DNA from: Candidatus Methanoplasma termitum
GTDB lineage: Archaea; Thermoplasmatota; Thermoplasmata; Methanomassiliicoccales; Methanomethylophilaceae
Direction: 5' to 3'
DNA: 64,000 bases
Assembly: GCF_000800805.1 (NCBI RefSeq)
Contig: NZ_CP010070.1
Coordinates: 1,054,001 to 1,118,000 of the forward strand
Position 1 is the stretch's first letter. Every line of letters begins with the position of its first letter. Below the pieces are notes generated by a model that searched no databases, was not told the origin of the DNA, and saw nothing but the letters and a program-made list of their open reading frames with translations. This document shows positions 27,025 to 47,103 of the stretch, piece by piece. A program made the translations under genes and the position numbers.

Positions 27025-27453
27025 TTACTTTTCCTCCTGTTTCAGGGGTGTCGGTCCAAGCTGTTTGATCGTATTGACGAATTCATTCAGCGTGTTCTGG
27101 AATTTCTCTCCTTCAGATGCAGATACCCACTCGAGTTTCAGCCTCTTCGGATCGAATCCGTACTGCTCTATCACCAATCTGATAAGAGCTATCCTTCTCC
27201 TTGCCCTGTAGTTACCTCCGATGTAGTGGCAGTCTGCCGGGTGGCATCCCAGGACCACTACTCCGTCCGCTCCTTTGGCCAGCGACCTGAGTATGAACTC
27301 GGGGTCGACCCTTGCGGAGCACATTGTCCTTATGATGCGGAAGTTGGGGGGCATCTGAAGTCTTGCCACACCTGCTCCGTCCGCTCCCGCGTACGAGCAC
27401 CAGTTGCAGCAGAACACTACTATCTTTGGTTCGAAGTCTGACATTTCCTTCAC
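27025..27453 (-). CDS. mvhD: Hydrogenase iron-sulfur subunit MvhD
   Basis: Small [2Fe-2S] protein linking hydrogenase to HdrA. The 142 residues show FCCNWCSYAGAD near the start, RTMCSARVDP and LGCHPADCHYIGGNYRARRR, the five-Cys pattern of MvhD, and RLKLEWVSASEG near the end. The reading frame opens with GTG 27453, overlapping the hdrA stop (GTGA); an ATG three codons later (27444) is an alternative. Gene order hdrA-mvhD-mvhG-mvhA in the direction of transcription is one operon. Confidence 0.95.
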   Translation of the reverse strand: MKEMSDFEPKIVVFCCNWCSYAGADGAGVARLQMPPNFRIIRTMCSARVDPEFILRSLAKGADGVVVLGCHPADCHYIGGNYRARRRIALIRLVIEQYGFDPKRLKLEWVSASEGEKFQNTLNEFVNTIKQLGPTPLKQEEK

Positions 27454-30400
27454 GCTCCCTCAAACAACGCATCGATCTCTGCGATGATCTGCTTGTTCCT
27501 GAATCCTCTCTGCTCCATTGCTCCTGCCGGGCAAGACGCAACGCATGATCCGCATCCCTTGCAGAGACCGGGGTTCACGTTGCTCACAACGGATCCGCTC
27601 TCGTCTGCGCATATGGTAATGGCGTTGTAGTCGCAGCAGCCTGCGCATACTCCGCATCCGTCGCAGAGGTTGTGGTTGGATACCGCGACTATGCCTTCAG
27701 AGATCAGCTTGTCCTTGGATATGGTGGTCAGCATCCTTGCCGCCGCGCCGGATCCCTGTGCTATGCACTCGTCGAGGAATTTCGGCCAGTGTGCTGTTCC
27801 GGCTACGTAGACCCCTTCTGTTGCGAAGTCTACCGGTCTCAGCTTCTGGTGTGCCTCGAAGAAGAATCCGTCCTTGCTTATCGGGACCTTGACCATCTTC
27901 GCAAGCTCTTCTTTCTCCTCGCGGAGAGGTGTCAGTCCTGCTGCGAGCACGACTGTGTCTACCGGGATCTCAACATCCTCCCCGAGTATGGAGTCGTGAG
28001 CTTTCACGACCTTTCCGTCGTAGCCGGGCATCTCGTTGTCCACACAGTACCTGAGGAACTTCACGCCTAGGCTGGATGCCTTGTTGAAGAGTTCCTCGCG
28101 GAATCCGTATGTTCTGATATCTTTGTGTATAATGGACACGTTCACGGTCGGATCCTTCATCTTTATCTGGATCGCATTGCGGAGCGATGCTGCGCAGCAT
28201 ACCCTTGAACAATACTTCACGGTACTGTTCCTCGAACCGACGCACTGCAGGAATGCCACGTTCTTTCCGCTGAACTTGCCACCAGCCAGAGCTTTCTCGA
28301 GATCGAGTACCGTCATGACCTTCTTGTCGCTTCCGTAGCTGTATTCGGTGGGTTTGTATTGTGCCGCTCCCGTCGCAAAGAGGACCGCACCTACTGCGAT
28401 CTCTTCTTTTTCCGTTACGACCTTGAAGTTTCCTACAAAGCCGGGGATGTCCTTTACATGGGCTCCCTTGTGCACGGTGATCTTCTTGTTGCCTTCGACT
28501 TTTGAGATCGTCTCTCTTACAAATTCCGCAACATCCTTTCCATCCTCTTTGTGGTAGAGGTTCTTCACTGCGAACCCGCCGAGCTCTTTCTCCTTTTCGA
28601 ATATGTGCACGGGTATTCCCTGTGCAGCTATGTCGAGGGCTGCCGTCATTCCGGTTATTCCGCCACCGATGACCGCTGCGACCTTTGTAACGGGTATCTC
28701 CGAACCGACCAACGGCTCAAGGAGTGCCGCCTTTGCGATGGCCATCCTCAACAGGTCTTTTGCTTTTACTGTCGCCGCCTCGTGGGCGTGCATGTGGATC
28801 CATGAACACTGGTCACGGATGTTGGCCATGTTGAACAGATATTTGTTCAACCCGCCGTCCCTGCATGCTTCCCTGAACAACGGCTCGTGGGTCCTCGGTG
28901 TGCATGATGCGACAACGACCCTGTTCAGATCCTGCTCTTTGATAGCATTGGATATCTCTACGAGACAGTCCTGTGCGCATGCGTATTTGGATTCACCGGA
29001 GAATACTACATACGGAAGTCCTTTTGCGTACTCAGCAACTGCCGGAACATCCACCACAGATCCGATGTTGACGCCGCAGTGGCATACCCATACACCTATG
29101 CGGGGCTCTTTGCCCTCTACGTCCTTCTCTGCGGGATATGTCTTCGGCGCCATGGGCTTGAAGTTGGCGTCTACTATGTAAGCGCCCGCTTTTGCGGCGG
29201 ATCCGCTTGCCTCTGCGACCGATGTCGGAATGTCCTTGGGTGCAGCGAACGCTCCCGTTACGAATACTCCTGCCCTTGTTGTCTCGAGCGGCCTGAAGAC
29301 AGATGTCTTACAGAATCCGTATTCATTGAGCTCGATTCCAAGCAGCTTGGAGAATTCCGTTGCTCCCTCTGGCGGAACGAGTCCTATCGAGAGTACAACG
29401 ATGTCGTACTCTGCGGATACTCCGTCGCCGTTCGAGTCGGTATAGTTGATCGTGAGTTTCTTCGTCTTCGGATCCTCTTCCACATTGGATACGCGGGCCG
29501 ACCTGTGCATGTTGATCCCGTACTCATTCTGTGCCCTCTCAATGTAGGCTTCGAATTCTTTTCCGTAGGATCTTATGTCCATGAAGAATATGTCCTCATC
29601 CACTTCTGCGTGCTCTTTCGTGATCATTGCCTGCTTTGTGGCATACATGCAGCACACCGATGAACAGTATTTCTTCCAGCCTGATTTTTCGGATCTTGAG
29701 CCGCAGCACTGGATGAAAGCGATCTTCTTCGGCTCGTCTCCGGAGGACGGTGTGGTTATGTGACCGGTCGATGGGCCGGATGCACACATCATTCTCTCGA
29801 ACTCAAGCGCCGTGACGACGTTCTTGAATCTTCCGTAACCATACTCTGTTCCGATCTTCGCATTCCATACCTCGAAACCGGGTGCGGCGATGATGGAACC
29901 TACTTCGATCACTTTCTCTTTGTCTTTGTCTTCGTAGTTTATTGCTTTCTTCTGACATACCTTTGCGCAAACACCGCACTTGCCGTTCTGTATCATCTTA
30001 CAGTTGAGTGCATCGATTATTGCAACCCTTGGCACTGCCTGTGCATGTGGTATGTAGATCGCCCTTCTTGTTGTCAGACCGAACTCGAACTCATCTGATA
30101 GCCCTTTCGTGGGACACTTCGCCAAACAGTCGCCGCAAGCTGTACAAGATTCTGGATCTACATACCTTGCTTTGCTTTTCAGCGTGACCTTGAAGTCTCC
30201 AGCTTTGCCTTCCACTTTCATTACTTCGTGGAAGGTTAGAGTATCAATGTTCGGATGCCCGATACAATCTGCCATTTTTGGTGAAAGGATACATGCAGAA
30301 CAGTCGTTCGTCGGGAATGTCTTGTCGAGACGGGACATTTTACCGCCTATCGTGGGGAGTTTCTCCACCAGATAAACGTGTATGTCCCTGTCCGCAAGAT

Positions 30401-30458
30401 CCAACGACGCCTGTATACCTGCGATGCCTCCGCCGATAACTAATGCCGATTTCGTCAA
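27450..30458 (-). CDS. hdrA: Heterodisulfide reductase subunit A, double-FAD-module form
   Basis: Flavoprotein that bifurcates electrons from hydrogenase between the CoM-S-S-CoB heterodisulfide (through HdrBC) and ferredoxin. At 1002 residues it is about one and a half times a standard HdrA and holds two FAD modules. Residues 1-450: GGGIAGIQASLD (8-19), DCSACILSPKM, ferredoxin-like CTACGDCLAKCP (about 106-117) and CGVCAKVC. Residues 455-1002: the usual N-terminal HdrA segment (VWVCHCGVNIGSVVDV), a second GGGITGMTAALD near 598 without the inserted ferredoxin, and a C-terminal two-cluster ferredoxin (CDGCGVCAGCC, CKGCGSCVASCP). It starts with TTG, seven bases after GGAGG. hdrB and hdrC are not in the window. 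Confidence 0.95.
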   Translation of the reverse strand: MTKSALVIGGGIAGIQASLDLADRDIHVYLVEKLPTIGGKMSRLDKTFPTNDCSACILSPKMADCIGHPNIDTLTFHEVMKVEGKAGDFKVTLKSKARYVDPESCTACGDCLAKCPTKGLSDEFEFGLTTRRAIYIPHAQAVPRVAIIDALNCKMIQNGKCGVCAKVCQKKAINYEDKDKEKVIEVGSIIAAPGFEVWNAKIGTEYGYGRFKNVVTALEFERMMCASGPSTGHITTPSSGDEPKKIAFIQCCGSRSEKSGWKKYCSSVCCMYATKQAMITKEHAEVDEDIFFMDIRSYGKEFEAYIERAQNEYGINMHRSARVSNVEEDPKTKKLTINYTDSNGDGVSAEYDIVVLSIGLVPPEGATEFSKLLGIELNEYGFCKTSVFRPLETTRAGVFVTGAFAAPKDIPTSVAEASGSAAKAGAYIVDANFKPMAPKTYPAEKDVEGKEPRIGVWVCHCGVNIGSVVDVPAVAEYAKGLPYVVFSGESKYACAQDCLVEISNAIKEQDLNRVVVASCTPRTHEPLFREACRDGGLNKYLFNMANIRDQCSWIHMHAHEAATVKAKDLLRMAIAKAALLEPLVGSEIPVTKVAAVIGGGITGMTAALDIAAQGIPVHIFEKEKELGGFAVKNLYHKEDGKDVAEFVRETISKVEGNKKITVHKGAHVKDIPGFVGNFKVVTEKEEIAVGAVLFATGAAQYKPTEYSYGSDKKVMTVLDLEKALAGGKFSGKNVAFLQCVGSRNSTVKYCSRVCCAASLRNAIQIKMKDPTVNVSIIHKDIRTYGFREELFNKASSLGVKFLRYCVDNEMPGYDGKVVKAHDSILGEDVEIPVDTVVLAAGLTPLREEKEELAKMVKVPISKDGFFFEAHQKLRPVDFATEGVYVAGTAHWPKFLDECIAQGSGAAARMLTTISKDKLISEGIVAVSNHNLCDGCGVCAGCCDYNAITICADESGSVVSNVNPGLCKGCGSCVASCPAGAMEQRGFRNKQIIAEIDALFEGA

Positions 30459-30797
30459 ATACTTGCCTCCGATTGTACCAATTAAATAATTGGAATAAAA
30501 GGTAATATCTCTCCATTAATAAAGCCCTTACTACAAAATGATTAAAATACTAGAACTCAAATTAGTCTGGTCTTTTTCTAAAAAACCATATTTCTCTGTT
30601 ACAAGAATGATTTTAGCTTATTTTAAAAAGACCCAGCAATAAATATTCATTAACAAACATGTATTTTCTAAAAAGGTAATTCAACCCATTCATTAGTAGA
30701 TTATTTGCATAAGAAAATAAAATTCGTATGCATTGAACAGCCTTGGTCCGGACCTACAACCAGAAGTATTAAGAAGGCAAATTTTATTAACCGCTTT
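30459..30797. other. AT-rich intergenic region upstream of hdrA and the zinc-finger gene
   Basis: About 340 nt without a gene, clearly richer in A/T than its surroundings. It should hold the promoter of the hdrA-mvh operon (candidate boxes CTTTATTAATG and CTTTTATTCC on the minus strand, 30495-30525) and of the plus-strand gene (TTTTATTAAC at 30783-30792 or AATAAATATTC near 30640). A 9-bp inverted repeat GGTCTTTTT/AAAAAGACC lies at 30569-30577 and 30625-30633. The open frame back to a TTG at 30705 lacks protein character. Confidence 0.5.
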
Positions 30798-31325
30798 ATG
30801 GGCTTTGGAAATACGATTTTAAGTCTGGCTATTATAATTGTGTTGGTTATATTGTTGATTGCTGTTTTCGTTTTACATCAGTACTTCCGCGCGGTTGCCG
30901 ATAAGAAATTCAAAAAAAATGGGAAATCCAAAGAAATACCTACTATTATTTTGGATGAGAAAGAGGACAAAAAGAAGTGCGAGATATGCTACGGAACAAT
31001 AGAAAATGACCCGATAGCAATATGCAAAAAATGCGGCAAGACGTTCCACGATGCATGCGCAAAACCGACGGGTGCGTGTCCTTACTGCAACACCAAATAT
31101 GAGGGTATGGAAATAAGAGAACCCGAAAGAACAAGGTGCCCGATCTGTGGAAGGTTCATCAAAGGGAACATGTGTCCCAACTGCGACGCCGTCATTCCCA
31201 TAAAAGACGGCACATTCGTCTGCAAATGCGGCAACACGGTCGATTGCGACAAACCGGTATGCAAAAATTGCGGTGCGGTCTATGAGACCGCCATGCGTGT
31301 GATAGAAAAAAACAAAAAACACTAA
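30798..31325 (+). CDS. Membrane-anchored protein with C4HC3 (RING/PHD-like) zinc finger and zinc ribbons
   Basis: From ATG 30798, 175 residues: one N-terminal membrane helix (about 5-28), a Lys-rich linker, then a cysteine-dense cytoplasmic part. Cys61, 64, 76, 79, His84, Cys87, 94, 97 follow C-x2-C-x11-C-x2-C-x4-H-x2-C-x6-C-x2-C, the order of cross-brace RING-CH/PHD fingers. Next come Cys114/117/126/129 (CPIC, CPNC) and Cys142/144/155/158 (CKC, CKNC), two zinc-ribbon-like modules. I do not recognise a named family. It ends 14 nt before the RNase P subunit gene that begins the exosome/proteasome operon. Adaptor or protein-quality roles are possible; function unknown. Confidence 0.7.
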   Translation: MGFGNTILSLAIIIVLVILLIAVFVLHQYFRAVADKKFKKNGKSKEIPTIILDEKEDKKKCEICYGTIENDPIAICKKCGKTFHDACAKPTGACPYCNTKYEGMEIREPERTRCPICGRFIKGNMCPNCDAVIPIKDGTFVCKCGNTVDCDKPVCKNCGAVYETAMRVIEKNKKH

Positions 31326-31339
31326 ACGTGAGGCTCAGA

Positions 31340-31657
31340 ATGGTAGTGAAATCCAAAAGGGGAAGGAGGAGATACATCGCTTTTTCCGTTTCTCCCGAAC
31401 TCAGAAAAGAAGCTCTGATCAGAGGCCTGAGGCAGGTCGACCCGGATAAACCGCCGCACATCATCCAGCTGTCTGGCGGTAAGGCGATAATCCGATGTTC
31501 TCCCGACGAACGGGAGGGGACGATCATTGCGGTCTCTCGGGTCGATCCGTCATCTGAATCGCTCATCACATCCGGTACTCTCCGCACCATCCGAGAAATA
31601 TATCCCGACCTAAAAGAAAAAGAGAAAAAAAATTCTACCGCGCCCGCGCATCTGTAA
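31340..31657 (+). CDS. rnp2: Ribonuclease P protein component 2 (Pop5/Rpp14 family)
   Basis: Protein subunit of archaeal RNase P, which removes tRNA 5' leaders. 105 residues with the Pop5 start MVVKSKRGRRRYIAF, the central GGKAIIRC strand and the segment SGTLRTIREIYPDL. ATG 31340 is preferred over GTG 31328, with GTGAGG just upstream. Its place before psmA and the exosome genes is the standard archaeal superoperon context (Rnp3 is often also there but is missing here). Confidence 0.9.
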   Translation: MVVKSKRGRRRYIAFSVSPELRKEALIRGLRQVDPDKPPHIIQLSGGKAIIRCSPDEREGTIIAVSRVDPSSESLITSGTLRTIREIYPDLKEKEKKNSTAPAHL

Positions 31658-31711
31658 ACCAATAAATAGTCCGGCGCATTTGTGGTCATTGAACAACAGG
31701 AGAAAAAAGAT

Positions 31712-32422
31712 ATGCAACCAGGACAAATGGCATATGACAGGGGGATAACAGTGTTCTCCCCCGACGGAAGATTGTTCCAGGTGGAGTATGCCCGAGAGGC
31801 TGTAAAAAAAGGAACGACCACTATCGGGCTGAAATTCAAGAACGGGGTCATCCTTATGGTGGACAAGAGGTTGTCCAGCAAGCTCGTCGAACCCGGTTCG
31901 ATCGAGAAGATCTATGACATTGACGATTACATCGGATGTGCGACATCCGGTCTCGTGGCCGATGCCAGAGTACTTATTGATGAGGCCAGGAAGAATGCGC
32001 AGAGGCACAAGCTCCACTACGATGAGAACATAGCCACGGAAATGCTCGTTAAGAACGTGTGCGACTACAAGCAGAACTACACCCAGTACGGCGGAGGACG
32101 TCCGTTCGGTGTTGCGCTGTTGGTCGCGGGGGTCGATGACCTCGGCATGCACCTGTTCGAGACGGACCCGTCGGGAGCGCTTGTCGCATACAGAGCAACA
32201 TGCATCGGTTCGGGAAGACCGGTCGTGATGGACATATTTGAGAGAGAATTCGAGGACGGCATGTCGTTCGAGGCCGCCGCAAAGCTGGGATTGAAAGCTT
32301 TAGGCACAGCGATCGACGATACTCTGTCCGCTGCATCCGTTGAGATCGGAGTGGTCGAGAAAGGAAAGAAATTCAGAAGGCTTTCCGACTCCGAAATAAC
32401 GAAGCTCATCGGAAAGGTCTGA
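31712..32422 (+). CDS. psmA: Proteasome subunit alpha
   Basis: Outer-ring subunit of the 20S proteasome, 236 residues. MQPGQMAYDRGITVFSPDGRLFQVEYAREAVKKG is the near-invariant N-terminal gate region with the alpha-type signature; then VADARVLIDEAR, YTQYGGGRPFGVALLVAG and a C-terminal helix. ATG 31712 follows AGGAG; an in-frame start at 31682 lacks a ribosome site. The beta subunit and PAN ATPase are outside the window. Confidence 0.97.
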   Translation: MQPGQMAYDRGITVFSPDGRLFQVEYAREAVKKGTTTIGLKFKNGVILMVDKRLSSKLVEPGSIEKIYDIDDYIGCATSGLVADARVLIDEARKNAQRHKLHYDENIATEMLVKNVCDYKQNYTQYGGGRPFGVALLVAGVDDLGMHLFETDPSGALVAYRATCIGSGRPVVMDIFEREFEDGMSFEAAAKLGLKALGTAIDDTLSAASVEIGVVEKGKKFRRLSDSEITKLIGKV

Positions 32423-32434
32423 GCAGCTGATCAC

Positions 32435-33127
32435 ATGGTCAATCTTGATGAGGCGATCGTAGCAAGACTGGAGAGTCACGGCGAGACATTCGAGGTTCTC
32501 CTCGACCCTGCAGTGATGAATCATCTTAAGCAAGGCAAAGAGATCGATCTTACGGAATACCTCGCCGTTGAGGATGTATTCAAGAACTCCAGAAAGGGGA
32601 CGAGGCCGGCCGAGGACAAGATAAAAGAGGTCTTCGGCACGGGGAATATATCGGAAATAGCCAAAAGGATCGTCGAAAAAGGAGAGGTCCAGATCACCGC
32701 CGAACAGCGGAAAGAAATGCTTGAGGCAAAAAGACATCGGGTGATAACCTACATATCGGCCAACGCAATAAACCCGCAGACCAAGCTCCCTCATCCATAC
32801 ACAAGGATAGAACTTGCTTTGGATGAAGTGAAGTTCCATGTGGATCCGTTCAGGCCTCTGGATAAAGAAATCGAAGAGGCGATGAAGCTTCTCCGTCCGG
32901 TACTGCCGATACGATTTGAGAAAAGTAAGGTAGCCATAAAACTAAGCGGCCCGGACTACGGAAAGTGTTTCGACGATATGATCCACTACGGGCTCATCGA
33001 AAGAGAAGAGTGGACCGCGGACGGTTCGTGGATAGGATTGATGGAACTGCCGGCGGGAATGGTGCCGGAACTGACCGAGAAGCTGAAACATAAGACCAAA
33101 GGAACAGCGTCAATAAAAACGATTTAA
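32435..33127 (+). CDS. sdo1: Ribosome maturation protein SBDS/SDO1
   Basis: 230-residue SBDS homologue, which in eukaryotes releases eIF6 from the large subunit. Three-domain family pattern: FYSH-type N-terminal domain (FEVLLDPAVMNHLKQG, then VFKNSRKGTRP), helical middle domain (QRKEMLEAKRHRVITYISANAINPQTKLPHP in part, a hallmark) and C-terminal ferredoxin-like domain. Twelve nt after psmA in the exosome operon. Confidence 0.95.
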   Translation: MVNLDEAIVARLESHGETFEVLLDPAVMNHLKQGKEIDLTEYLAVEDVFKNSRKGTRPAEDKIKEVFGTGNISEIAKRIVEKGEVQITAEQRKEMLEAKRHRVITYISANAINPQTKLPHPYTRIELALDEVKFHVDPFRPLDKEIEEAMKLLRPVLPIRFEKSKVAIKLSGPDYGKCFDDMIHYGLIEREEWTADGSWIGLMELPAGMVPELTEKLKHKTKGTASIKTI

Positions 33128-33154
33128 ATATACAATTCGAGAGAAGTGATAAAA

Positions 33155-33865
33155 ATGGAAAAAAGAAACGCCAGAAACACACGGGAGGTCGTGGTTCCGG
33201 GAGAGCTGCTGGATGACAGCGGCATGGGAGCCGGGAACAACGCATACGTGCTCAATGGCAAAGTGTACGCCGGAGTATTAGGCGTCAAGAACGTATTCCA
33301 TGATACGATAGGCGTCATCCCGTTGGGGGGACGCTACATGCCCACCACAGGGGACACTGTGATAGGAATAATCGAGGACATAGGCCCTTCGAATTGGCTT
33401 GTTGACATAAACGCCCCGTATCCGGCGCCGCTGCATGTGAGCGAGGTCCCATGGAAGATAGAGTTTGGAGACACTTCAAAATATCTTAACGTCGGGAACG
33501 TCGTGATGCTGAAGGTCCTCATGGTGGATGAGAGCAAGAAAATACAGGTCACCATGAAAGACTCCGGACTCCGGAGGATCGAGGGGGGGCAGATGGTAGA
33601 GATGCCCCATTCCAAAGTATCAAGGGTCATCGGCAAGAGCGGTTCCATGATACAAAAGATAAAGAACCTGACGGACTGCCGCATATTCGTTGGACAGAAC
33701 GGAAGGATCTGGGTCGACGGAGACAAAGAGAATGCGGATGTCGCGGTCGCAGCCATAAAAATGATCGAGAGAGAGGCACAGAGCAGCAACCTTACGGAAA
33801 AGGTTGAAAAATTTATTAAAGAAAAACTCCCGCAAGCGGTAGATGAGAGCGGGGAGGGATATTGA
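33155..33865 (+). CDS. rrp4: Exosome complex RNA-binding protein Rrp4
   Basis: Cap subunit of the archaeal exosome. 236 residues: N-terminal domain ([10 protein letters not shown], then [14 protein letters not shown]), S1 domain ([28 protein letters not shown] split across) and KH domain ([16 protein letters not shown], then [14 protein letters not shown]). ATG 33155 preferred over an in-frame GTG 33146. The stop overlaps the rrp41 start (TGATG). Confidence 0.96.
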
Positions 33866-34608
33866 TGAGCGGACAAACTGACATGGTATTGGTTAATAAG
33901 AAAGGCGTGAGGATCGACGGCAGGAAGACCGACGAACACAGGCCAGTTCACATTGAAGCGGGGGTGCTCAGCAACGCTGACGGCTCCGCATATTTAGAGA
34001 TAGGAAAGAACAAAGTGCTTGCCGCGGTATACGGACCGAGGGAATGCCACCCAAGGCATCTTCAGGATCCGACCAAAGCGATCATCCAGTGCAAATACAA
34101 CATGCAGGCGTTCTCCGTCAGCGACAGAAAAAGACCGGGCCCGGACAGAAGATCCATCGAGATCTCGAAGATAATCGCCGAGGCTTTGGAGAAAGTGGTC
34201 CTGACCGAGCTTTACCCGCGTGCGTCCATCGATGTGTACATCGAGATCCTTCAGGCGAACGCCGGAACGAGATGCGCAGGACTGACAGCGGCATCCGTAG
34301 CGCTTGCCGATGCGGGGATACCGATGCGCGACATTGTCCCCGCCATAGCGGCCGGTAAAGCGGACGGCCATGTTCTGCTGGATCTTAATAAAGAGGAGGA
34401 CAACTACGGACAGGCGGACGTTCCGCTTGCGATAGTTCCGTCAACAGATGAGATCGTCCTTCTGCAGATGGACGGCAACATGACAAGAGAAGAATTCGAC
34501 AAAGCTCTTGACATGGCCTTCGGTGCGTGTCACGATCTGTATGAGATACAGAAGGCCGCGCTTAAAACCAAATACGCCGCGACGAAGGGAGGTGAAGAAG
34601 ATGAGTGA
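33865..34608 (+). CDS. rrp41: Exosome complex exonuclease Rrp41
   Basis: Catalytic RNase PH-like subunit of the exosome hexamer, degrading RNA 3' to 5' with phosphate. 247 residues with [34 protein letters not shown] and the core [38 protein letters not shown] and the active-site region [19 protein letters not shown]. Its C-terminus encodes the ribosome-binding site of rrp42. Confidence 0.97.
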
Positions 34609-42556: not shown

Positions 42557-45500
42557 ATGGGATTGGAAGACAGCTTATACTCCGAGCTCGTTGAGCTCAG
42601 GGATGGTATAAGAGAGGACCGCACGCACTCTACAGGCAGGGTGCCGACTGTATGCACTGATGAGGCGCTGAGAGAAATGGCGCAGAGGGTTCCGACAAAG
42701 GCGGAGGATTTTGCCGCTATCCCCGGAGTGGGACAGAGATTTGTCGAGTTATACGGTGACGAGTTCCTCTCGGTGACGAAGAAATATGCCGTCACCGCGG
42801 CGAGGGGCTCCAATATGGAACAGGATGTTGTCAGGGCGCTTCGGGAACTGCAGAAGAAGCTTACTAACATCAGCAGGAACAACCGCCTACTGTATATGGG
42901 AAAACTGTACAGAAAGAATGCCTTCGATCTGACATCCATTCCGAGCCTCGAGACGATGAACCTCCTCTTCGGAAAGAAGAAATCGCTCAAACTCTGCGAT
43001 TCGACAAAAAGCGCAGAGGATCTGAAAATATTCAAAAATCTCACAGAATTGATAAGAGAGGTCAACAGGGACCAGAGAGATAAGGGCCAATACGACCTTT
43101 ACATCGGATATCCTTTCATCGAGGGGAGACTCCCTGGAGAGGATTTTGATGTCAGGGCTCCTCTCGCATTGTTCCCGGTCATTTTGGACAAGGACGCAAA
43201 GAGCATCTCGGTGAGATTGGACGATTCCCGTGATGCCATTTACAACAACGCTCTTCTGCTGGCATTCATTAAATTCAGCGGCAAGAATAAACCGCTCCCC
43301 TACAACGTGATCGAGGAGTACAGCGCAGAGTCGTTCATGAGCAACCTTGCAACCTTCTACGAATCGCAGGGATTCCCGCTTAAGCTGTCGTACAGCCCCC
43401 TCACTCCGTTCATAGATTACAGAGAGGGAGAATTCCCCAAGTATCTGCCGGGAGATATGAAGGTCGTTCACAATGCGATATTGGGAAAATTCCCATCGTA
43501 TTCCAGCTATATCCAGAAGGATTTCGACGAGTTGCTTGCCGGAAGGGAGATCAACGCCGCCCTTTCCAATCTCGTGAAGGATCTGAACCAAGGCGACTTT
43601 TATTCCGACATGCCGAGTCCTCTTTCTCTGCCGGCCTTGAGGGAGAAAGGGCTGGAGGCTTCGGAGAAGGACATAACATACATCAATACGCTCAACAGCG
43701 CTCAGGAGAATGTCATCACAGCCGTCAATAAGGAGGATGAGCTTGTTGTTCACGGACCTCCTGGCACAGGCAAATCGCAGGTCATTACTGGATTGATCAC
43801 GTCCGCCGTCAATAACGGTAAAACTGTTCTGATGGTATCCGAGAAGAAGACCGCTTTGGATGTTGTATATTCCAGGCTCGGACCCCTGTCGAAATATTGT
43901 CTGCTCATAGACGATACAAGCAACAAGGACCAATTCTACCAGCAGCTCGGGAGGATGCTTGAGGCCGTACCGCCCCGCACCGGTTCCGATCTCGCGGCCC
44001 TTTCGGACAGCATAGATAAGGACGTCTCCGTCCTTTCGAACATTGCCGAGACGATGTACCATGAGGGGCCGTTCGGCATAGAGCCGTACAAACTGTACTC
44101 GATGGACAAATGGCTCAACCTCGAGGATAAGATTGAGTACGAGAAGTACAAGATGATCAAAGCGGCGGTCTCGACAAAGCTGATGAATCTCAAGTACAAA
44201 GAGGTCAAAGAACTGACCCGGAAATTCAACGACAGAGTTCTGATGACCAATTTCAACGAATACAGCGAGTGCCTCGCAAAGACGCCGTGGTTCGCCATAA
44301 TGAAGCAGGACCTCTCCGAATATAACATCGGAGAGATGAAAGCGGACCTGATGAATCTCGAGCTTCAGATCAAGGAGTGGAAAAGCAAAGGCGCGGTCTC
44401 CAGGATGTTATCCAAAGGAAAGGTCAACCGCGACGCGACAGCCTTGCTCGATAAATATTTCGTATCATACAACGAAAAGACCATCCAGACCGTCATCGAT
44501 GACCCCAAGGCCGTGATCGACGCGCTCAAGGACTATGAGTTATACTCATCCCGCGCGACCGTCTACAACAGGCTGAATGAGAAGGAACGCATTTACGGCC
44601 ACGTCATCGTCGCTTTGTCCAAAGAGTCCGGCTGGACCTTCGAGGACAGCAACAACAACATCCTGAAATACATTTTGAACGAGCACCTGCAGAAGTTCGA
44701 TGCGGACCACAAAGCTTTGCTTCAGGACATCCAGGACTTTGACAGCATCGTTGCCGATATGGACCGCAAGATCAACGACAAGAAGAATATCACAAAGAAC
44801 CGTGTCGAAGAGATACTGCAGGCCGATCTCCGCTACATCACCGAGTCCAAACGCCGCGGGGACATCGTCCGCATCATCGAGAACAAAAGAAAGTGGAGCC
44901 TTAACAAATTCCTCAGCCGGTACAGCTTTGAAATGTTCAAGGGCGTCAAGATCTGGCTCCTGACCCCCGAAGTGGTATCCGAGATTATGCCTTTGGAGAT
45001 GGGGCTTTTCGACCTCCTCATATTTGACGAAGCTTCGCAGATGTATGTCGAAAAAGGCATCCCGGCCATCTACCGTGCGAAAAAGGTCGTCATCGCAGGC
45101 GACCACAAGCAGCTGCGTCCCTCAAACCTCGGTTCGGGGCGCATCGACTACAGCAACGAGGAGGATTACGATGAAGAGGAGGATGAAGTGTCAGCTGTGC
45201 TCGAAGAGGAGAGCCTGTTGGATCTTGCCAGGACCCGGTACGACAATATCCTGCTTAATTTCCACTACAGGTCGCAGTACGAGGAACTGATCGCATTCTC
45301 CAACTATGCTTTCTATGGCGGAAGGCTGTACGTTTCCCCCAACGTGGTAGAGCCGGAGAGGCCTCCGATAGAAGTTCACAAAGTGAGCGGGGAATGGGCG
45401 AACAAGGCCAATGTCAAAGAGGCGAGGATCGTCGTGGACCTGCTGAAGGATTTCTTCAAGACAAGGAAAAACAACGAGACCATCGGCATCATCACATTCA

Positions 45501-46303
45501 ATGTTTCCCAGAGAGACCTTATCAACGACCTGATCGATGATGCGGCTACAGCCGACCCTGATTTCGGAAAAGCGGTCAACAAAGAGATGGTGAGGTTCGA
45601 TAACGGTGAAGATGTGGGTCTTTTCATAAAGAACATCGAAAGTGTTCAGGGCGACGAGCGTGATGTTGTCATCTTTTCGATAGGTTACGCCAAAAATAAA
45701 GATGGCAGGCTCATGCAGAGGTTCGGCTGGCTCAATAACAAAGGCGGGGAGAACCGTTTGAATGTCGCGATAAGCCGTTCCAAGAAAAAGATCCACATCG
45801 TACTGTCCTTCGACCCGGAAGAGTTGCAGGTGGACAGTTCGAAGAACGACGGCCCCAGGATCCTGAAGAAGTATCTGCAGTACGCAGAAGCAGTAAGCAA
45901 CGGAAACAAGGAACTCGCGCAAAGCATCCTGAACTCATTCGGAGACAACAGGTGGGTATCTTCACCGACGGTCCCGGGAGAATCCCCTATCAACGAGAGG
46001 GTATACAATGCGCTTGTAAGGAAAGGATACAGCGTGGAGAAGGAAGTGGGCATCGGAGGATACACAATAGATATGGCTATCAAACAGGACGGCAGATATA
46101 TCCTAGGAATAGAGTGCGACTCCCACATTTACGAAATGTCGGACTCTACAAGAGAAAGGGACTACCACAGACAAAAGTACCTTGAATCGAGAGGCTGGCA
46201 CATACACAGAGTATGGACATCCGGAATGTGGAAGGATCCTCAGAAGGAGATCAACAACATCGTGAAAGCGATAGAGAAGACCGGCCCGAGATCATCTCGC
46301 TGA
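42557..46303 (+). CDS. HRDC-DUF4011-SF1 helicase-Vsr-like nuclease
   Basis: 1248-residue multidomain protein. Residues 1-80 form an HRDC domain (EALREMAQRVPTKAEDFAAI). About 90-330 resemble the DUF4011 region (LTNISRNNRLLYMG). Then a UPF1/Dna2-like SF1 helicase: Walker A GPPGTGKS (400-407), motif II DEASQ (824-828), GDHKQLRPS, FHYRSQYEELIAFSN, ENRLNVAISRSKK (motif VI), with a long coiled insertion at about 560-790. Residues 1145-1235 are a Vsr/DUF559-like PD-(D/E)xK nuclease: IDMAI with Asp1172, GIECDSH with Glu1186 and Asp1188, then GWHIHRVWTS. Bacterial DUF4011-helicase-Vsr proteins are linked to phage defence; a repair role is also possible. Confidence 0.85.
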   Translation: MGLEDSLYSELVELRDGIREDRTHSTGRVPTVCTDEALREMAQRVPTKAEDFAAIPGVGQRFVELYGDEFLSVTKKYAVTAARGSNMEQDVVRALRELQKKLTNISRNNRLLYMGKLYRKNAFDLTSIPSLETMNLLFGKKKSLKLCDSTKSAEDLKIFKNLTELIREVNRDQRDKGQYDLYIGYPFIEGRLPGEDFDVRAPLALFPVILDKDAKSISVRLDDSRDAIYNNALLLAFIKFSGKNKPLPYNVIEEYSAESFMSNLATFYESQGFPLKLSYSPLTPFIDYREGEFPKYLPGDMKVVHNAILGKFPSYSSYIQKDFDELLAGREINAALSNLVKDLNQGDFYSDMPSPLSLPALREKGLEASEKDITYINTLNSAQENVITAVNKEDELVVHGPPGTGKSQVITGLITSAVNNGKTVLMVSEKKTALDVVYSRLGPLSKYCLLIDDTSNKDQFYQQLGRMLEAVPPRTGSDLAALSDSIDKDVSVLSNIAETMYHEGPFGIEPYKLYSMDKWLNLEDKIEYEKYKMIKAAVSTKLMNLKYKEVKELTRKFNDRVLMTNFNEYSECLAKTPWFAIMKQDLSEYNIGEMKADLMNLELQIKEWKSKGAVSRMLSKGKVNRDATALLDKYFVSYNEKTIQTVIDDPKAVIDALKDYELYSSRATVYNRLNEKERIYGHVIVALSKESGWTFEDSNNNILKYILNEHLQKFDADHKALLQDIQDFDSIVADMDRKINDKKNITKNRVEEILQADLRYITESKRRGDIVRIIENKRKWSLNKFLSRYSFEMFKGVKIWLLTPEVVSEIMPLEMGLFDLLIFDEASQMYVEKGIPAIYRAKKVVIAGDHKQLRPSNLGSGRIDYSNEEDYDEEEDEVSAVLEEESLLDLARTRYDNILLNFHYRSQYEELIAFSNYAFYGGRLYVSPNVVEPERPPIEVHKVSGEWANKANVKEARIVVDLLKDFFKTRKNNETIGIITFNVSQRDLINDLIDDAATADPDFGKAVNKEMVRFDNGEDVGLFIKNIESVQGDERDVVIFSIGYAKNKDGRLMQRFGWLNNKGGENRLNVAISRSKKKIHIVLSFDPEELQVDSSKNDGPRILKKYLQYAEAVSNGNKELAQSILNSFGDNRWVSSPTVPGESPINERVYNALVRKGYSVEKEVGIGGYTIDMAIKQDGRYILGIECDSHIYEMSDSTRERDYHRQKYLESRGWHIHRVWTSGMWKDPQKEINNIVKAIEKTGPRSSR

Positions 46304-46963
46304 GAGATGGGCTTTCTTTACAAAAAGGGTCCCGGCGCCATTCTTCCACTCTTTTTCATATTCGGTTATCTCCAAGGGCTTACTGTGCATCGGCGAGTCT
46401 GTTGTCAGGGATTCGTACTCCCCGCCCTCCCCGATAACGCTTATGCCGTATCTCCCTCTGAGCGACCTGAGCTCTTCGGCGGCTTTATTGTCTATCTCCC
46501 TTCCGAGCCACGGTTCGTCGAGGCCTTCAGCATAACACCCGATGATCGTCGCCCTTATGCCAGCTGAGATCATTTCTTTCAGGACCGTATCTTGGTCTTT
46601 ATGCCAAAGAGGAGAAAGAACCTTAAGGCCCAGTTCTCCGCAGACCATATTCATCTTATCCCACTGGTAGTCGGACCAGACCGCGCCCGTCACTATCCCG
46701 TCGATGTCCAGATGCGATAATGCTTCGCTGAGGGCCCGAATATCATCCTCTTCCGACCCCGACGTCTCTGCCGTAACAAGTTCGATCCCCATAGACTCTG
46801 CCATGAGCGGCACTATTTTGATATTCGGAACATGGAATATCCACGATTCCTGCGCTTCGGGCACAATGCTCACAAGATACGGTATCTCGTGCCCCATCTG
46901 TAGTGCCAGATATAATGCGAAAGTGGAATCTTTTCCTCCGGAGTATAATGCCGCAAGGCGCAT
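46292..46963 (-). CDS. dph6: Diphthine-ammonia ligase (Dph6-like ATP pyrophosphatase)
   Basis: 223-residue PP-loop protein for the last step of diphthamide synthesis on elongation factor 2. PP-loop YSGGKDST at residues 7-14, then VTAETSGSEEDDI, DGIVTGAVWSDYQ, SPLWHKDQ and IGEGGEYESLTTDSP, all family features. ATG 46963 rather than 46987 fits both the family start and a TTAAATTA box 25-32 nt upstream. The 3' end overlaps that of the helicase by 12 nt. Confidence 0.9.
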   Translation of the reverse strand: MRLAALYSGGKDSTFALYLALQMGHEIPYLVSIVPEAQESWIFHVPNIKIVPLMAESMGIELVTAETSGSEEDDIRALSEALSHLDIDGIVTGAVWSDYQWDKMNMVCGELGLKVLSPLWHKDQDTVLKEMISAGIRATIIGCYAEGLDEPWLGREIDNKAAEELRSLRGRYGISVIGEGGEYESLTTDSPMHSKPLEITEYEKEWKNGAGTLFVKKAHLSAR

Positions 46964-47013
46964 ATCATTCCGAATGGATAACTGCATAATTTAACCTTGC
47001 TTTCGGGTTAATC

Positions 47014-47023
47014 GGGGGGGGGG
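47014..47023. repeat. Homopolymer of ten G
   Basis: G10 on the plus strand between the divergent dph6 and rpiA genes. It is by far the longest homopolymer seen in the window outside A/T tracts. Confidence 0.8.
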
Positions 47024-47103
47024 CTCTCGTTTACTTTACGCTGATCTCACAGAAACCAACGAAAAGATACATTTATTTGTGAAGCGTATTTGCACCGGAG
47101 AAG

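Follow-up and report, generated by a model that had tools for sequence, protein, structure and literature searches.

A candidate membrane-anchored RING-like E3 of an archaeal ubiquitin-like system, encoded at the head of the proteasome–exosome operon in Methanomassiliicoccales

Gene content of the locus

The window is a stretch of 64,000 nucleotides from Candidatus Methanoplasma termitum, the genome of which is a complete archaeal chromosome of 1,488,669 bases. The gene studied here, referred to below as ZF, is the open reading frame at window positions 30798-31325 (+), with 528 nt and 175 aa. The features of the locus are the following (window coordinates, with the evidence for each in brackets):

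27450..30458, minus strand: HdrA-like gene, divergent, the constant left neighbour of ZF (NCBIfam HdrA2 is the best match, E 6.5e-283, below its cut-off; synteny)
30798..31325, plus strand: ZF gene, candidate membrane-anchored RING-like E3, 175 aa (both the alignment of orthologs and the AlphaFold model back the ATG)
30816..30881, plus strand: transmembrane helix of ZF, residues 7-28 approximately (sequence; AlphaFold helix 3-40; hydropathy of relatives)
30978..31088, plus strand: C4HC3 RING-like finger of ZF, residues 61-97 (Pfam, orthologs, PDB profile, predicted fold)
31137..31184, plus strand: first ribbon ligand set of ZF, C114-C129 (invariant in 52 orthologs; DZR-like, below cut-off)
31221..31271, plus strand: second ribbon ligand set of ZF, C142-C158 (invariant in 52 orthologs)
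31328..31657, plus strand: rnp2 / Pop5, with a conserved ATG at 31340; the ZF stop is 14 nt upstream (PDB profile search)
31682..32422, plus strand: psmA, proteasome alpha subunit (PF00227, E 3.2e-62)
32435..33127, plus strand: SBDS (Pfam)
33146..34608, plus strand: open reading frames which we take to be the exosome genes Rrp4 and Rrp41, from knowledge of the families and an earlier note on this DNA (ORFs; synteny)

The identity of rnp2 is based on a profile search of PDB sequences, which returned RNase P component 2 (E 0.0055). The gene order 3' of ZF is Pop5/Rnp2, psmA, SBDS, Rrp4, Rrp41, a second RNase PH-like gene, L37Ae, Pcc1 and prefoldin, and includes the rnp2–psmA–SBDS–Rrp4–Rrp41 order of the archaeal proteasome–exosome operon. 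The earlier note, made from the letters alone, had placed ZF 14 nt before this operon, a distance borne out by the conserved rnp2 ATG, and had named a separate transcript with no conserved neighbourhood as grounds for refutation; the neighbourhood of ZF is instead kept across the order. The arrangement hdrA (divergent)/ZF/rnp2/psmA/SBDS/Rrp4/Rrp41 is found in essentially all loci of the window's family, as far as the contigs reach, and across 46 loci of the family the distance from ZF to rnp2 ranges from -19 to +25 nt. In the sister families f2-f6, ftsZ lies between the two genes (ZF–ftsZ–rnp2–psmA). Sixteen genomes that have no ZF at the locus keep other genes of the hdrA–rnp2–psmA–SBDS–Rrp4 stretch. 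Two local departures were seen: in G321 further genes besides ftsZ separate ZF from rnp2, and in L044 (G094) about 1.6 kb lies between rnp2 and psmA, unlike in its relatives.

The DNA immediately 5' of ZF (window 30700-30797) resembles that of relatives in the genus Methanoplasma even when translated (HKKxxFVC, then SIKKxxFIN), and conserved promoter DNA is a more likely reason for this than an N-terminal extension of ZF. In a six-frame scan of the window, ZF was the sole match to the RING-like Cys/His pattern. A single-sequence search of the genome, an incomplete count of its RING-like proteins, gave only weak matches besides ZF, the nearest of which (L034, L035) are other zinc proteins.

Domain organisation and conservation of ZF

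ZF starts with a single hydrophobic helix, as the earlier note had read it, and this helix spans residues 3-40 in the AlphaFold model. Basic residues follow, and from their position the finger is predicted to be cytosolic; after them come a linker, the finger and two Cys4 ribbon sets. The finger ligands are C61, C64, C76, C79, H84, C87, C94 and C97, giving the spacing C-x2-C-x11-C-x2-C-x4-H-x2-C-x6-C-x2-C. The two zinc ribbons that had been proposed after the finger are found as two sets of ligands, C114, C117, C126, C129 and C142, C144, C155, C158.

Orthologs were searched for in 102 genomes of the window's family: 58 had a match, and about 54 of these matches are orthologs at the same locus. 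All 16 ligand positions of finger and ribbons are invariant in the 52 aligned family orthologs, the overall identity of which falls to ~26-30%; this invariance is far beyond chance. Based on 62 relatives, the spacing of the finger is C-x2-C-x(10-14)-C-x(1-2)-C-x4-H-x2-C-x(5-6)-C-x2-C. The window's ZF is unusual in having C-x2-C at ligands 3/4, where 60 of the 62 have C-x1-C. The helix has a hydropathy above 1.6 in only 52/62 relatives and is missing in several sister families, so it is not a defining feature of ZF. The homologs of families f2-f6 are longer (229-274 aa) and carry more ribbons, and the f16 homolog, which has no helix, has TPR and RfcS genes as its neighbours. The homolog of G264 (L117:2758-3501) reads CGTGKVFH, with finger ligand 4 replaced by Thr; E2 is still present in this genome.

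Fold of the finger and E2-contact positions

The best Pfam matches of ZF are Prok-RING_1, PHD, zf-RING_2 and DZR, all under their cut-offs. Prok-RING_1 (PF14446) is the best match of the finger, with 24.8 bits against a cut-off of 29.1 (E 2.2e-5), and the match does not extend to the ribbons. RING-CH (RINGv/MARCH) fingers have the spacing C-x-C-x7-H-x2-C-x11 or longer-C-x2-C, and PHD fingers are C4HC3 fingers whose last pair is preceded by x12 or more. The earlier note had called the spacing of ZF typical of RING-CH/PHD; its C4HC3 finger is confirmed, but the spacing fits neither class. RING-CH is rejected since x4 precedes the His and x5-6 the last pair in 62/62 relatives measured, and PHD on account of the same x5-6 and a Pfam score of 21.4 bits (cut-off 24). 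Judged by its spacing, the finger is a short RING-like form.

A profile of 21 ZF orthologs was compared with all PDB sequences, and RING E3 entries take the first 23 places (E 7.5e-5 to 6e-3), among them ZNRF3 (7.5e-5), RNF165, Arkadia, RCHY1, AMFR, XIAP and FANCL. AlphaFold2 models full-length ZF with a pLDDT of 82 and the finger by itself with one of 89.5, and the finger has a beta-beta-alpha unit. The top Foldseek matches of the finger are almost all RING/U-box E3 domains, with probability 0.96-1.00 for most and TMq ~0.5-0.67, but no E-value is significant (0.013 and 0.017 are the best); rubrerythrin and one 30S ribosomal protein are also among the matches. Structure prediction had been proposed as a check, with the lack of a cross-brace as refuting result; the predicted finger is RING/U-box-like, and this fold match suggests a cross-brace. 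Eight Cys/His ligands in four pairs, as in RING domains, are thus found in 52/52 orthologs together with a predicted RING fold.

E2-binding RINGs have a hydrophobic residue at C1+2 and a Pro at C7+1. Among the relatives of ZF the former is present in 61/62 and the latter in 62/62. The linchpin Arg after the last Cys, common in eukaryotic RINGs and not universal in them, is present after C8 in just 1/62. Similar fingers exist in Thermoplasmata families in which no E2 of the ZF-associated type was detected, so this type of finger alone is no proof of an E3.

The E1–Ubl–E2–JAMM operon of the same genome

The earlier note had seen no ubiquitin-like protein (Ubl) or E2 in the window. This holds for the window, but both are encoded elsewhere in the same genome, as a cognate E2 and Ubl of a RING-type E3 should be, in an operon at chromosome positions 45066-47052 (+) (L141:7067-9053) that contains no RING gene. 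Its genes are the following (chromosome coordinates):

45066-45833, plus strand: E1, single ThiF-type domain, 255 aa (Pfam ThiF, E 1.9e-50)
45830-46072, plus strand: Ubl (Pfam ubiquitin, E 6e-5, just below cut-off)
46074-46559, plus strand: E2 (Pfam UQ_con, E 7e-14)
ending at 47052, plus strand: JAMM (Pfam JAB, E 1.2e-16)

The cluster has, by its sequences, the make-up of an archaeal ubiquitin operon: E1, a Ubl with GG, an E2 with a catalytic Cys, and a JAMM protein. The E2 profile matches UBE2B/UBE2A at 7e-13 to ~1e-12, and the HPN motif and the Cys are conserved. Among PDB sequences, the Ubl has only ubiquitin as its closest matches, with best E-values that are inflated by polyubiquitin repeats. 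In 17 of the 18 loci read, the C terminus of the Ubl is PDPEGG followed by 0-9 residues, and in the other it is PDPQGG; the HSH motif of JAMM is kept in 16 of the loci read. As the Ubl of the window genome ends in PDPEGGS, trimming of one residue by JAMM would expose GG. None of the E1–Ubl–E2–JAMM clusters viewed in the order contains a RING gene. A defence-system reading was set aside: ZF had no PADLOC match, and E1 and JAB gave partial matches to E1–E2 and JAB models.

E2 proteins of this family are also present in about a dozen further families of Thermoplasmata. In f11, the gene for E2 divergently adjoins a protein of 1452-1458 aa with a C-terminal finger of ZF-type spacing in 5/5 testable genomes, and the profile of the ZF finger matches these proteins (L181-L183, L185, L186) at 2e-8 to 4e-12. 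A RING protein adjoining E2 was seen in f11 only, among the clusters viewed. A similar protein of 1538 aa exists elsewhere (L139). In families f29 and f32 (L195, L196) components of the same operon are enlarged: the Ubl-containing proteins have 355-377 aa and the JAMM proteins 629-879 aa.

Shared presence and shared loss of ZF and E2

In a first panel searched with UQ_con, one E2 over the cut-off was found in 24/24 ZF-positive genomes and in 0/12 ZF-negative ones. Across 147 Methanomassiliicoccales genomes, 91 have both ZF and E2, 48 have neither, six have E2 only and two have ZF only. Restricted to the 74 genomes that are at least 90% complete, the numbers are 49 with both, 24 with neither, none with E2 only and one with ZF only (G099). 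Seven of the eight discordant genomes are less than 90% complete and one is 91% complete. The two with ZF and no E2 are G045 (68% complete) and G099 (91% complete, JAB also missing); each is either an assembly gap or a real exception. Fisher tests for ZF and E2 gave p = 2e-29 and 1e-18, values which ignore kinship, overstate the evidence and are not relied on.

Losses were counted by Dollo parsimony on a tree of psmA and SBDS from 72 genomes, with nodes of less than 0.9 support collapsed for a conservative count. All 9 branches on which ZF is lost are also branches of E2 loss, and at least 4 events remain after collapsing. A single deletion does not account for the co-loss because the loci are unlinked: ZF lies at 1085 kb and the operon at 46 kb of the 1.49 Mb chromosome, ~0.45 Mb apart.

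JAB is absent in every ZF-negative genome tested, and JAMM follows the ZF/E2 pattern except in three genomes of genus g7, which have ZF and E2 and no detectable JAB. Also in g7 (L155, L152), one JAMM relative lacks HSH and several E2 matches run across a stop; in this genus the Ubl system seems to be decaying before loss. Neither of the two controls, ThiS and FtsZ, shows the distribution of ZF, and a ThiS/SAMP-type modifier is rejected as its partner, as it shows no association with ZF across genomes. The phylogenetic profile proposed in the earlier note has thus paired ZF with E2 and not with ThiS, while the proteasome–exosome operon stays in place where ZF is lost.

Proposed function and alternative explanations

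The architecture of ZF, the partner operon, and the shared presence and loss are read from sequence; the RING-like fold is predicted. On this evidence we consider it likely that ZF is a RING-type E3 of an archaeal Ubl cascade whose E1, Ubl, E2 and JAMM lie elsewhere on the chromosome. Since both are kept or lost together across Methanomassiliicoccales, ZF is very probably the missing ligase of the Ubl system. In the proposed cascade JAMM would trim the Ubl to its GG end, E1 would adenylate it and the conserved cysteine of E2 (GGxVC motif) would carry it. The finger of ZF, presumably with zinc bound, would dock the charged E2 and act as its ligase; the ribbons may select substrates or conjugates, and the N-terminal helix would keep the complex at the membrane in the Methanomassiliicoccales lineage. 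Tagged proteins would pass to the 20S proteasome, the alpha subunit of which is encoded in the operon of ZF, and this proteasome is their likely destination. A membrane E3-like protein beside the proteasome had been raised in the earlier note, and the E1–Ubl–E2–JAMM operon, the co-loss with E2 and the predicted fold all argue for it.

A different role within the same Ubl system is unlikely: ZF could be a non-catalytic receptor or scaffold that gathers conjugates or E2 at the membrane or proteasome, with E2 conjugating without a true E3. The same co-loss data, the missing linchpin Arg and the location in the proteasome operon would fit such a protein, and zinc ribbons are able to bind ubiquitin. 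However, nearly all relatives retain the hydrophobic C1+2 and the Pro at C7+1 of E2-binding RINGs, the PDB sequences nearest to ZF belong to E3 RINGs, and a finger of the same type adjoins E2 in f11.

That ZF and E2 occur together through general loss of genes in some clades, and not for a functional reason, is improbable. The losses do cluster in g7 and g9, and the clades are related, which is why the Fisher values overstate the evidence; but the separate concordant losses, at least four, include genus g22 (lost in G304 and G352, kept in G438 and G440) and g5, ThiS has no such link to ZF, and the g9 genomes are not smaller, being mostly 1.5-2.4 Mb.

It is very improbable that ZF is an adaptor that binds RNA or ribosomes, the fallback reading of the earlier note, and that it serves the RNase P/exosome/SBDS operon by anchoring RNA processing to the membrane. 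The position of ZF and its tight gap to rnp2 would suit an adaptor, binding of RNA or ribosomes is common among archaeal zinc ribbons, and one 30S protein is among the Foldseek matches. Against this, ZF disappears together with E2 and the exosome/proteasome operon stays behind, as in the 16 genomes described above, and the f16 homolog stands outside the rnp2–exosome operon.

An FtsZ-associated, ZipA-like role is hardly credible and is largely refuted by the profile of FtsZ across genomes: the order ZF–ftsZ–rnp2–psmA in f2-f6 and the N-terminal helix with a cytosolic domain would fit it, but FtsZ is over the cut-off in 0/26 genomes tested of the window's family (f1), many of them with ZF, it is present in G240 and G304, both without ZF, and the helix is missing in several families with ftsZ beside ZF. 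As FtsZ is undetected above cut-off in the f1 genomes tested, this family would have to divide by other means.

Within the E3 reading, we propose more tentatively a membrane-localised ubiquitin–proteasome route. In it, a RING E3 with a single membrane pass, expressed together with the proteasome, might tag membrane/secretory clients, which would be its substrate class, for degradation; this would be an archaeal functional analogue of ER-associated/plasma-membrane E3 quality control that evolved separately in this lineage, by the addition of a helix to a RING–ribbon protein that is soluble in several relatives. This route is possible, though we do not favour it.

Comparison with known systems and significance

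The closest known system is that of Caldiarchaeum subterraneum, Rpn11–Ub–E2–E1–srfp(E3), the cascade of which has been reconstituted (PMC5654768, PMC6043591). A Ubl with GG, an E1, an E2 with Cys and HPN, a JAMM deubiquitinase and a small RING protein are found in both. Ligands 3/4 of srfp are shifted as well: they lie two residues out of register, and there is an extra Cys (PMC5654768). In contrast to Caldiarchaeum, the E1 found here is a single ThiF-type domain and the E1–Ubl–E2–JAMM operon has no RING gene; the RING protein heads the proteasome–exosome operon, and its RING is joined to a membrane helix and two ribbons. Operons with Ub, E1, E2 and JAMM have been described in prokaryotes, and RING E3s were noted solely for Caldiarchaeum and Asgard archaea (PMC6043591). 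The E3-less operon described here fits the former; the difference is that a site for the E3 is now proposed.

Eukaryotic RING-H2 E3s (ZNRF3, Arkadia, RNF165, AMFR), some of which are membrane-anchored, are the first PDB matches and are of the same predicted fold class (AlphaFold/Foldseek). ZNRF3-type proteins have a single helix and a cytosolic RING, as predicted for ZF, whereas ZF is C4HC3 with C-x(1-2)-C-x4-H instead of C-x-H-x2-H, has no linchpin Arg and carries two ribbons after the finger. An Rpn11 homolog was noted in Methanomassiliicoccus luminyensis (PMC4453063) and RING and UCH genes were reported in one marine group II euryarchaeote (PMC4327156). We found no description of an E2/E3 system in Methanomassiliicoccales in the open-access literature. 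The order has rumen isolates, ISO4-G1 and ISO4-H5 (PMC4824259, PMC5011839).

Among archaea, complete E1–E2–E3 ubiquitylation has been demonstrated in Caldiarchaeum, and there are reports of it for Asgard archaea. To these the present analysis adds methanogens of animal and termite guts, with a full candidate cascade whose putative E3 lies in the proteasome operon. This would be a direct genomic link between Ubl tagging and the archaeal proteasome, and it makes the candidate ligase, its membrane anchor and their natural losses comparable within one order.
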